From contig NZ_JAINVZ010000016.1 of NCBI RefSeq assembly GCF_019890615.1, forward strand, positions 1-64,000: a DNA stretch of 64,000 nt, given 5' to 3'. This DNA comes from Streptantibioticus parmotrematis (lineage in GTDB: Bacteria > Actinomycetota > Actinomycetes > Streptomycetales > Streptomycetaceae). Shown here piece after piece: positions 50,125 to 53,379 of this stretch. The translations under genes and the position numbers were made by a program. The notes beneath the pieces are model-generated. The model was not told the origin of the DNA. It saw only the letters and a list, made by a program, of their open reading frames with translations, and made no database searches. How positions within the stretch are numbered: the stretch's first letter is position 1; every line of letters starts with the position of its first letter.

Positions 50125-50502
50125 GTGCCCGACCGCACTCCGGAGACGAACGTCATCGACTACCGCGCGGCCGAACAACTCCTGGCCGCCCGCGACCCGC
50201 GCGGCGCCGTCAAGCTGCTCGACCCCGTCATCACCGCCCACCCCGAGAACACGGCGGCGCGCCTGCTGCGCGCCCGCGCCTTCTTCATGGCGGCCCAACT
50301 GCGTGCCGCGGAACTGGAGTTCCAGGTCGTCCTGGAACGCGAACCGGCCAACGCCTTCGCCCACTTCGCCCTCGCCCGCACCCTGGAACGCGCCCTGCGC
50401 CCCACCGAGGCCCAACGCCACTTCCGCCTGGCCGCAGCCCTGGACGCCAACCCGGAATACCTGCGGGCGGCACGCTTCGAGGACGGCGCGGGCTCGTCCT
50501 GA
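50125..50502 (+). CDS. TPR-repeat protein
   Basis: A small 125-residue protein made almost entirely of tetratricopeptide-like helical pairs (ATARLLRARAFFMAAQLRAAELEFQ-type units, then FAHFALARTLERALRPTEAQRHF), which mediate protein binding. The partner is unknown. GTG 50125 has GGGAGG 5 nt upstream. An exact sigma-R-type promoter just upstream suggests a role in the thiol-oxidative stress response, perhaps as an adaptor. It is convergent with ogt, 20 nt apart. Confidence 0.8.
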   Translation: MPDRTPETNVIDYRAAEQLLAARDPRGAVKLLDPVITAHPENTAARLLRARAFFMAAQLRAAELEFQVVLEREPANAFAHFALARTLERALRPTEAQRHFRLAAALDANPEYLRAARFEDGAGSS

Positions 50503-50522: not shown

Positions 50523-51095
50523 TCAGAACAACGGTTCCGGCAAAACGCCCTCCAGGGCGAGGAGGGTGCGTTTGGTCTCCAGGCCGCCGCCGAAGCCGCC
50601 TATGCCGCCGCCGCTCTCCACGACGCGGTGGCAGGCGACGACCACGGGCAGCGGGTTCGAGCCCATCGCGACGCCGACCGCGCGGGCCGCGCCGGGCTCG
50701 CCCACCCGGTCGGCCAGCGTCTGGTAGCCGACGACCTCGCCGTACGGGACGCCCGCGGCCAGCTCCAGCAGCACGCGGTGGTTGAAGCCGCCGCTGAGGG
50801 ACCAGTCAAGCGGCAGGGTGAAGCGCTTCAGCCGACCGGCGAAGTACGCGTCGATCTGGCGCGCTGCCTCCGCCAGGTGCGGCGCGCTCTCCAGGGGCGC
50901 GGCGCCGTCCCCCACGCGTATCGCCTCGCCGCTGAAACGCCCGGCCAGCCGCCGCACGGCCGCGGGGACGACGAGCCGGTCGGCGTGGAAGGCCACGTTG
51001 ACCAGCCCCTGCCGCGTGGCCGCCAGCAGCAGGGGTCCGATCGGGGTGTCCCGCACCGTCCACCAGGCGGCCGGGGCAGGCTTCGATTCCGTCAC
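50523..51095 (-). CDS. ogt: Methylated-DNA--[protein]-cysteine S-methyltransferase
   Basis: A 190-residue O6-alkylguanine-DNA alkyltransferase that repairs DNA by moving the alkyl group to its own cysteine. The C-terminal domain (about 103-186) has FNHRVLLELAAGVPYGEVVGYQTLA, the MGSNPLP helix and the acceptor Cys155 in VVACHRVV; the usual motif is PCHRV, so Pro is replaced by Ala. FGGGLETKRTLLALEG completes the signature. The GTG start has no Shine-Dalgarno and begins 6 nt after a TACGCT -10, so the mRNA should be leaderless. It is divergent from uvrB, with a damage-type promoter. Confidence 0.92.
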   Translation of the reverse strand: MTESKPAPAAWWTVRDTPIGPLLLAATRQGLVNVAFHADRLVVPAAVRRLAGRFSGEAIRVGDGAAPLESAPHLAEAARQIDAYFAGRLKRFTLPLDWSLSGGFNHRVLLELAAGVPYGEVVGYQTLADRVGEPGAARAVGVAMGSNPLPVVVACHRVVESGGGIGGFGGGLETKRTLLALEGVLPEPLF

Positions 51096-51101
51096 GCCGC
51101 C

Positions 51102-51124
51102 AGCGTAGGACCCGGCACTGACAA
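51102..51124 (-). promoter_or_regulatory. RecA-NDp/PafBC-type promoter of ogt
   Basis: On the minus strand: TTGTCAGTG, 8 nt, TACGCT, then GGCGGC and the ogt GTG. This is an exact match to the LexA-independent damage promoter tTGTCRgtg-N8-TAnnnT described in mycobacteria and controlled by PafBC. Confidence 0.8.
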
Positions 51125-51253
51125 CGGGCGCCGGTTTCGGGAGCGGGGCGGTCCCCGGTCCGGGCCGGGGACCCGAGTCACTCGACGAGATTTTCCGCTT
51201 CCGCGCAGGTCAGCGGCGTATCGGAGGTGAAGGTTCGGTCCGGCGGCGGCCGG

Positions 51254-51276
51254 TTGTCAGTGGCTGGTCGTACGGT
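51254..51276 (+). promoter_or_regulatory. RecA-NDp/PafBC-type promoter of uvrB
   Basis: TTGTCAGTG (51254-51262), 8 nt, TACGGT (51271-51276), then 6 nt and the uvrB ATG. It is an exact consensus match, and the spacing predicts a leaderless transcript. No Shine-Dalgarno is present. Confidence 0.8.
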
Positions 51277-51282
51277 GTTTTC

Positions 51283-53379
51283 ATGCGGCCCGTATCTGAT
51301 ATCGAACGCAAGGTGGCGCCCTTCGAGGTCGTCAGCCCCTACCAGCCCAGCGGTGACCAGCCGGCGGCCATCGCCGAGCTGGAGCGGCGCGTGCGAGCGG
51401 GCGAGAAGGACGTCGTGCTGCTCGGCGCCACCGGTACGGGCAAGTCGGCCACCACCGCGTGGATGGTGGAGAAGCTCCAGCGGCCGACCCTGGTCATCGC
51501 GCCCAACAAGACCCTCGCGGCCCAGCTCGCCAACGAGTTCCGCGAGCTGCTGCCCAACAACGCCGTCGAGTACTTCGTCTCGTACTACGACTACTACCAG
51601 CCCGAGGCGTACGTCCCCCAGACGGACACCTACATCGAGAAGGACTCCTCGATCAACGAGGAGGTCGAGCGGCTGCGCCACTCCGCCACCAACTCCCTGC
51701 TCACCCGGCGTGACGTGATCGTCGTCGCGTCCGTGTCGTGCATCTACGGCCTGGGCACGCCGCAGGAGTACGTGGACCGCATGGTCCGACTGCGGGTCGG
51801 CGAGGAGATCGACCGCGACCAGCTGCTGCGCCGCTTCGTGGACATCCAGTACACGCGCAACGACATGGCGTTCACCCGGGGCACCTTCCGGGTGCGCGGC
51901 GACACCATCGAGATCTTCCCGGTCTACGAGGAGCTGGCCGTCCGCATCGAGATGTTCGGCGACGAGATCGAGGCCCTGTCCACCCTCCACCCGCTCACCG
52001 GCGAGGTCGTCACCGACGACCAGGAGCTGTACGTCTTTCCCGCCACCCACTACGTCGCCGGTCCCGAGCGCATGGAACGTGCCATCACCGGCATCGAACA
52101 GGAGCTGGAGACCACCCTCGCCACCCAGGAGAAGCAGGCCAAGCTGCTGGAGGCCCAGCGGCTGCGCATGCGCACCACGTACGACATCGAGATGATGCGC
52201 CAGATCGGCACCTGCTCCGGCATCGAGAACTACTCCCGGCACATCGACGGCCGCGACCCGGGCTCCGCGCCCAACACCCTCCTCGACTACTTCCCGGAGG
52301 ACTTCCTCCTGGTCATCGACGAGTCGCACCAGACGGTGCCGCAGATCGGCGCGATGTACGAGGGCGACGCCTCCCGCAAGCGCACCCTGATCGAGCACGG
52401 CTTCCGCCTCCCGTCCGCGCTGGACAACCGCCCGCTGAAGTGGGAGGAGTTCCTGGAGCGCGTCGACCAGACCGTCTACCTGTCGGCCACCCCCGGTCCG
52501 TACGAGCTGTCCCGCTCCGACGGCGTCGTGGAGCAGGTGATCCGCCCCACCGGGCTGGTCGACCCGCAGGTGATCGTCAAGCCGACCGAGGGCCAGATCG
52601 ACGACCTGGTGCACGAGATCAGGCTCCGCGCCGAGCGCAACGAACGCGTCCTGGTCACCACCCTCACCAAGAAGATGGCCGAGGACCTCACCGACTACAT
52701 GCTGGAACTCGGCATCCAGGTGCGCTATCTGCACAGCGACATCGACACCCTGCGCCGGGTCGAGCTGCTGCGCGAGCTGCGCGCGGGCGAGTTCGACGTG
52801 CTCGTCGGCATCAACCTGCTGCGTGAGGGCCTCGACCTGCCCGAGGTCTCGCTGGTCGCGATCCTCGACGCCGACAAGGAGGGCTTCCTGCGCTCCGGCA
52901 CCTCGCTGATCCAGACCATCGGCCGCGCCGCGCGGAACGTCTCCGGCGAGGTGCACATGTACGCCGACAAGGTCACGCCGGGCATGGCGCGCGCCATCGA
53001 CGAGACCAACCGGCGCCGCGAGAAGCAGATCGCGTACAACACCGAGAACGGCATCGACCCGCAGCCGCTGCGCAAGAAGATCGCCGGCATCCTCGACTCC
53101 TTCGCCCGGGAGGACGCCGACACCGAGGAGCTGCTCGGTTCCGGACGGCAGCGTTCGCGCGGCAAGGCACCGGTGCCGGGGCTGTCGGCGAAGGCCGGGG
53201 AGAAGCGGGCCGCGAAGAGTCTGCCCGCCGCGGAACTCACGGAGCTGATCGAGGAGTTGACAGAGCAGATGCACACCGCCGCAGCCGAGTTGCAGTTCGA
53301 GGTGGCGGCCCGCATCCGCGACGAACTGGGTGAACTGAAGAAGGAGTTGCGGCAGATGAGGGAGGCGGGGGTCGCCTGA
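51283..53379 (+). CDS. uvrB: Excinuclease ABC subunit B
   Basis: UvrB is the damage-verifying helicase-like subunit of nucleotide excision repair. The 698-residue protein has Walker A GATGTGKS at about 48-55, the beta-hairpin [14 protein letters not shown] box [11 protein letters not shown], the domain-3 motifs ([41 protein letters not shown]), and the C-terminal UVR domain ([25 protein letters not shown]) that contacts UvrC. The ATG lies 6 nt after a damage-type -10 element. UvrA is encoded about 9 kb downstream. Confidence 0.98.

Follow-up and report, generated by a model that had tools for sequence, protein, structure and literature searches.

The 187-bp gap between the divergent genes ogt and uvrB of Streptantibioticus parmotrematis (51096-51282) contains two outward-facing 23-bp sites that match the PafBC-type (RecA-NDp) motif tTGTCRgtg-N8-TAnnnT exactly. 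We consider it probable, at about 85%, that these sites are two independent PafBC-type promoters, from which leaderless ogt and uvrB mRNAs would start at the first base of the start codon. This reading was derived by sequence comparison of a 64,000-nucleotide stretch of DNA (the window), the rest of the 7.4-Mb genome and related Actinomycetes; the motifs, their spacing and conservation, the content of the regulon and the presence of PafB and PafC were observed directly.

The two sites in the ogt-uvrB gap

The features of the region are listed in Table 1. On the minus strand (51124-51102), TTGTCAGTG-CCGGGTCC-TACGCT is followed by GGCGGC and then by the GTG of ogt at 51095, and on the plus strand (51254-51276), TTGTCAGTG-GCTGGTCG-TACGGT is followed by GTTTTC and then by the ATG of uvrB at 51283. 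In both sites, the -10 element begins exactly 8 nt past the box. It was found that neither 6-nt gap holds a Shine-Dalgarno sequence at a usable distance, that the region 51050-51330 has no sigma-70-type -35/-10 promoter, and that a LexA box (GAACN4GTTC, with up to one mismatch allowed) is absent from 51096-51282. The initial annotation had described two exact sites, one on each strand, with -10 elements ending 6 nt before the start codons and no Shine-Dalgarno sequence, and this description was borne out at both genes.

Table 1. Genes, putative promoter elements and other features of the ogt-uvrB region (positions in the window).
Feature	Position	Strand	Evidence or remark
ogt, O6-methylguanine-DNA methyltransferase, 190 aa, GTG start	50523..51095	-	PF01035 E=4e-27, PF02870 E=7e-12, NCBIfam TIGR00589
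uvrB, excinuclease ABC subunit B, 698 aa, ATG at 51283	51283..53379	+	Pfam UvrB_inter, UvrB, Helicase_C, UVR (PF17757/PF12344/PF00271/PF02151)
Putative ogt promoter, -26 (RecA-NDp/PafBC) box TTGTCAGTG	51116..51124	-	exact match; kept in relatives
Putative ogt promoter, -10 element TACGCT	51102..51107	-	6 nt before GTG
Putative uvrB promoter, -26 (RecA-NDp/PafBC) box TTGTCAGTG	51254..51262	+	exact match; kept in relatives
Putative uvrB promoter, -10 element TACGGT	51271..51276	+	6 nt before ATG
Predicted ogt transcription start, leaderless	51095	-	from -10/start-codon spacing
Predicted uvrB transcription start, leaderless	51283	+	from -10/start-codon spacing
Second conserved block in the gap, CTCGACGAGATTTTCCGCTTCCGCGCAGGTCAGCG	51181..51215	.	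outside both motifs; no assigned function

The second conserved block is nearly unchanged between the two species of the genus, whose sequences have diverged on either side of it, and its core was found once in this genome. A terminator-like match at 51246-51271 shares sequence with the uvrB promoter and was dismissed as a chance match, and GCAGGTCA was rejected as a common upstream element, being present in a few loci only and at inconsistent positions.

A different explanation is that ogt and uvrB are mainly controlled by LexA or are constitutive, with the motif acting as a minor promoter. We take the S. coelicolor gene SCO1969 to be ogt, based on gene order and annotation; SCO1966 is the uvrB of that species. 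SCO1969 was upregulated about 3.7-fold, along with recA and lexA, when topA was depleted in S. coelicolor, and the authors attributed this induction of repair genes to LexA (PMC6637917); SCO1966 is not in the corresponding passage of the expression table. The literature naming SCO1966 or SCO1969 yielded expression-table entries only, and a search for work on Streptomyces uvrB as a leaderless gene found no paper. The block at 51181-51215 could also hold another element. However, the gap has neither a LexA palindrome nor a sigma-70-like site, and the exact GAACN4GTTC palindromes nearest to it, at 50526-50537 (the 3′ end of ogt) and 50311-50322, lie within coding sequence or at its end. Furthermore, in many Streptomyces, the stop codon of an MHYT gene is only a few tens of bases from the uvrB ATG, and the uvrB motif takes up most of that interval. 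Control mainly by LexA or by a constitutive promoter is therefore judged unlikely, although it is the strongest of the competing explanations.

Distribution of the motif in the genome and the genes behind it

A genome scan for the 23-bp motif, which the initial annotation had proposed as a check, found 24 exact copies compared to 0 for the reversed pattern, and on this basis the motifs exceed chance; with up to one mismatch allowed, there were 82 copies and 3 for the reversed control. When the spacer was freed to any length from 0 to 24 nt, it was exactly 8 nt in 24 of 26 genome matches. Shuffles of the window gave an expectation of 0 motif copies and, given one site, the probability that a second strict site would fall by chance on the opposite strand within 187 bp was about 0.0003. 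Start codons were chosen by the position of the ORF and its GC content at third codon positions; with these, the -10 element was followed at 6-7 nt by a start codon in 14 of the 24 strict sites, compared to about 1.5 expected (P ~1.5e-11).

The excess extends to relatives, as each of 31 sampled genomes of the Streptomyces family had 8 to 52 exact copies, whereas the control had 0-1. PafB-like matches were present in 292 of 297 genomes of the class, so near to universal that co-occurrence of motif and PafB has little power; the two f25 genomes that had no PafB match also had no motif, but are too small a sample. One Actinomycete genome (G153; L163-L182) contained 119 strict copies (control, 0), many of which are the same 23-mer with similar flanks, dispersed and often with no leaderless gene behind them, a pattern like that of an interspersed repeat.

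Repair or replication genes lie behind about 11 of the 24 strict sites, a number for which the chance estimate assumes that 1.5% of genes are repair genes. Strict sites precede recA, ruvC, rarA/mgsA, an exonuclease III-type gene and a recD2-like helicase gene, and also genes for an HhH-GPD glycosylase and an AlkZ-like glycosylase, as well as dnaX and rpsF, the last usually followed by ssb. Sites with one mismatch add uracil-DNA glycosylase (UDG), pcrA/uvrD, xseA, a DinG-like helicase, a DnaQ-like exonuclease, a PD-(D/E)XK nuclease and a helicase with a WYL domain. Non-repair targets exist, in that a transporter, an EccE-like protein and uncharacterised ORFs are behind some sites. The genome-wide and comparative evidence gives good support to the proposal of the initial annotation that ogt and uvrB belong to a damage regulon, and their induction by damage would be predicted.

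A second back-to-back motif pair is present in the same genome at C12:153995 and C12:154056 (L087, G000:C12:151400-156600). One of its sites is strict and the other has a -10 mismatch, and the pair lies between genes for a SWIM zinc-finger protein and a MoxR-like AAA ATPase; similar pairs were seen in L151 and L153. A back-to-back pair flanked on one side by sbcD was seen in another genus of the family (L143-L147).

Conservation and arrangement of the promoters in relatives

The comparison in the Streptomyces group was based on 80 ogt loci, in 77 of which the start of uvrB was located nearby. The uvrB motif was present with two or fewer mismatches in 77/77 loci and exact in 69, counts that do not represent independent events because the loci are related. 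Its core is near-invariant, and its distance to the ATG is 7 nt in 58 loci and 6 nt in 19. Outside the family, where 30 Actinomycetes were compared, 26 of the 29 scoreable uvrB genes had the motif with two or fewer mismatches, compared to 3.8% of random windows, mostly 6-7 nt before the start codon.

The ogt motif was present with two or fewer mismatches in 74 of the 80 loci (exact in 49), and the sequences of the loci with a site were read and place the start codon 6-7 nt away. The leaderless geometry proposed initially is supported by this spacing, which is kept both genome-wide and in relatives. In the other six loci (L002, L003, L008, L011, L014 and L045), ogt is retained but its site is weak or missing, and five of these six retain an exact or near-exact uvrB site (one mismatch or fewer). 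In L003, L014 and L045, the TTGTC box upstream of ogt is lost and a TAGACT -10-like element just before the ATG is kept. Therefore, the expectation that close relatives would conserve the motifs was correct throughout for uvrB but only in part for ogt.

Of the 29 ogt-like matches outside the family that could be scored, 26 had at least four mismatches at the start codon, a comparison weaker than that for uvrB because some of the matches may be paralogues. The remaining three (L232, L233 and L237) have a degenerate, two-mismatch site located 6-7 nt ahead of a start codon in frame, and going by these sequences the link of ogt to PafBC may be older than the family or may have arisen more than once.

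The close spacing of the two promoters is uncommon. The genus of the window, of which two species were compared, belongs to the family that includes Streptomyces, and the compact ogt-uvrB pattern was found in 2 of 298 genomes of this family, both of this genus, in a scan restricted to CACTGACAA on the side of ogt and to gaps of 85-145 nt, which would miss variants. Locus L001 and genome G311 have an identical gap sequence and could represent one organism. The usual arrangement in Streptomyces has 1-2.4 kb between the two promoters, a distance occupied by a GDPD gene and commonly also by an MHYT gene, and the separated ogt and uvrB each still carry their own promoter. Streptantibioticus silvisoli has a DUF4241 gene at this place. 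None of the other matches to the compact pattern whose loci were compared corresponded to ogt or uvrB; those examined in other genera were sbcD and SWIM/MoxR-like loci.

The initial annotation had regarded the single compact region as the unit of control, and this view did not survive the comparison. Because both promoters persist when 1-2.4 kb apart, control appears to be shared in trans, and these arrangements indicate that co-control goes through a shared activator and not a shared operator, with the closeness in this genus being incidental. Coupling of the two PafBC-type promoters in cis by the short gap, through a shared complex, supercoiling or mutual interference, would fit with the retention of the compact gap in both species of the genus compared, with the conserved block between the promoters and with the other back-to-back pairs, beside sbcD and at the SWIM/MoxR-like pair. 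It is nevertheless very improbable, given that most Streptomyces keep both sites despite one or more genes in between and that the predicted starts, 187 bp apart, leave room for two separate complexes.

PafBC as the candidate activator and relation to known systems

The genes pafA, pafB and pafC are clustered at C23:193705-198723, with pafB and pafC (C23:193705-195645) downstream of pafA. The structures matched in the PDB were 7p5x and 6sj9, and the E-values against the M. smegmatis proteins, known from a solved transcription complex (7p5x), were 8e-59 for PafB and 3e-51 for PafC. Single-stranded DNA activates PafBC in M. smegmatis, where the activator associates with RNA polymerase at promoters that carry a -26 box (PMC11804915), and uvrB mRNA was 37% lower in a ΔpafBC mutant of that species (PMC5656591). 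That another regulator such as ClgR reads the sites is very unlikely, since, although ClgR was reported to recognise the mycobacterial motif, in a study cited in PMC5656591, later in vivo cross-linking and cryo-EM assign the motif to PafBC (PMC6789036, PMC11804915), and the PafB and PafC found here match the structurally solved proteins well.

Two independent PafBC-type promoters would thus operate as follows, by analogy with M. smegmatis. DNA damage would produce ssDNA that binds the WYL domains of PafBC, and the ssDNA-bound PafBC would enable RNA polymerase carrying the housekeeping sigma factor to transcribe from promoters in which a -26 box and a -10 element are present and a -35 element is absent. 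Transcription of ogt and uvrB would then begin at the first nucleotide of each start codon. With promoters of this type before them, both genes would thus join the damage regulon with recA, ruvC, rarA, the recD2-like helicase, an nth-type glycosylase and others, coordinated in trans by the common activator. The binding of PafBC, the induction by damage and the leaderless start are all predicted from this analogy.

The assignment of the motif to the RecA-NDp class known from mycobacteria was right, but the class is also known from Streptomyces. In the passages available from PMC5087735, it is described at the S. rimosus recA promoter, for which a 'new type of promoter' (Ahel 2002) is cited, and at S. 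coelicolor SCO6735, in a section headed as UV-inducible. Those promoters have the same motif and come from the same family; they are single promoters, however, and the same passages do not mention the ogt-uvrB pair. The mycobacterial RecA-NDp/P1 promoters of the PafBC regulon share with the present ones the tTGTCRgtg-N8-TAnnnT motif, the lack of a -35 element, repair genes as targets and PafB/PafC genes located by pafA, whereas the set described here clearly includes ogt and its dependence on PafBC is a prediction. The LexA SOS response of S. venezuelae (PMC9380542) is likewise a Streptomyces DNA-damage regulon, but here there is no LexA palindrome between ogt and uvrB. Taken together, these comparisons give good support to the view that the ogt/uvrB pair adds to a known damage regulon and is not a new type of switch.

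The Ada adaptive response senses methylated DNA through Ada. Like it, the arrangement described here would control the reversal of alkyl lesions, but the Ogt of this organism is a stand-alone protein encoded behind a PafBC-type site. Judging from the distribution of the sites, there is a contrast within the regulon, in that uvrB appears to belong to it almost class-wide, whereas ogt appears to do so strongly only in the Streptomyces family. A tentative explanation, which we think has somewhat less than an even chance of being correct, is that the Streptomyces family moved ogt into the ssDNA-sensing PafBC response, in which uvrB had been present since early Actinomycetes. If this is true, alkyl-lesion reversal would be triggered by ssDNA and not by an Ada-type sensor of methylated DNA.

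These results also bear on a question that the 2022 S. venezuelae LexA study left undecided, namely whether Streptomyces has a PafBC-type, LexA-independent response; an initial search in that study suggested that the M. smegmatis PafBC motif was not conserved in S. venezuelae (PMC9380542). On the sequence evidence presented here, the Streptomyces family very probably has such a damage response. Its existence in Streptomyces is now directly testable, and ogt and uvrB would be good reporter genes.
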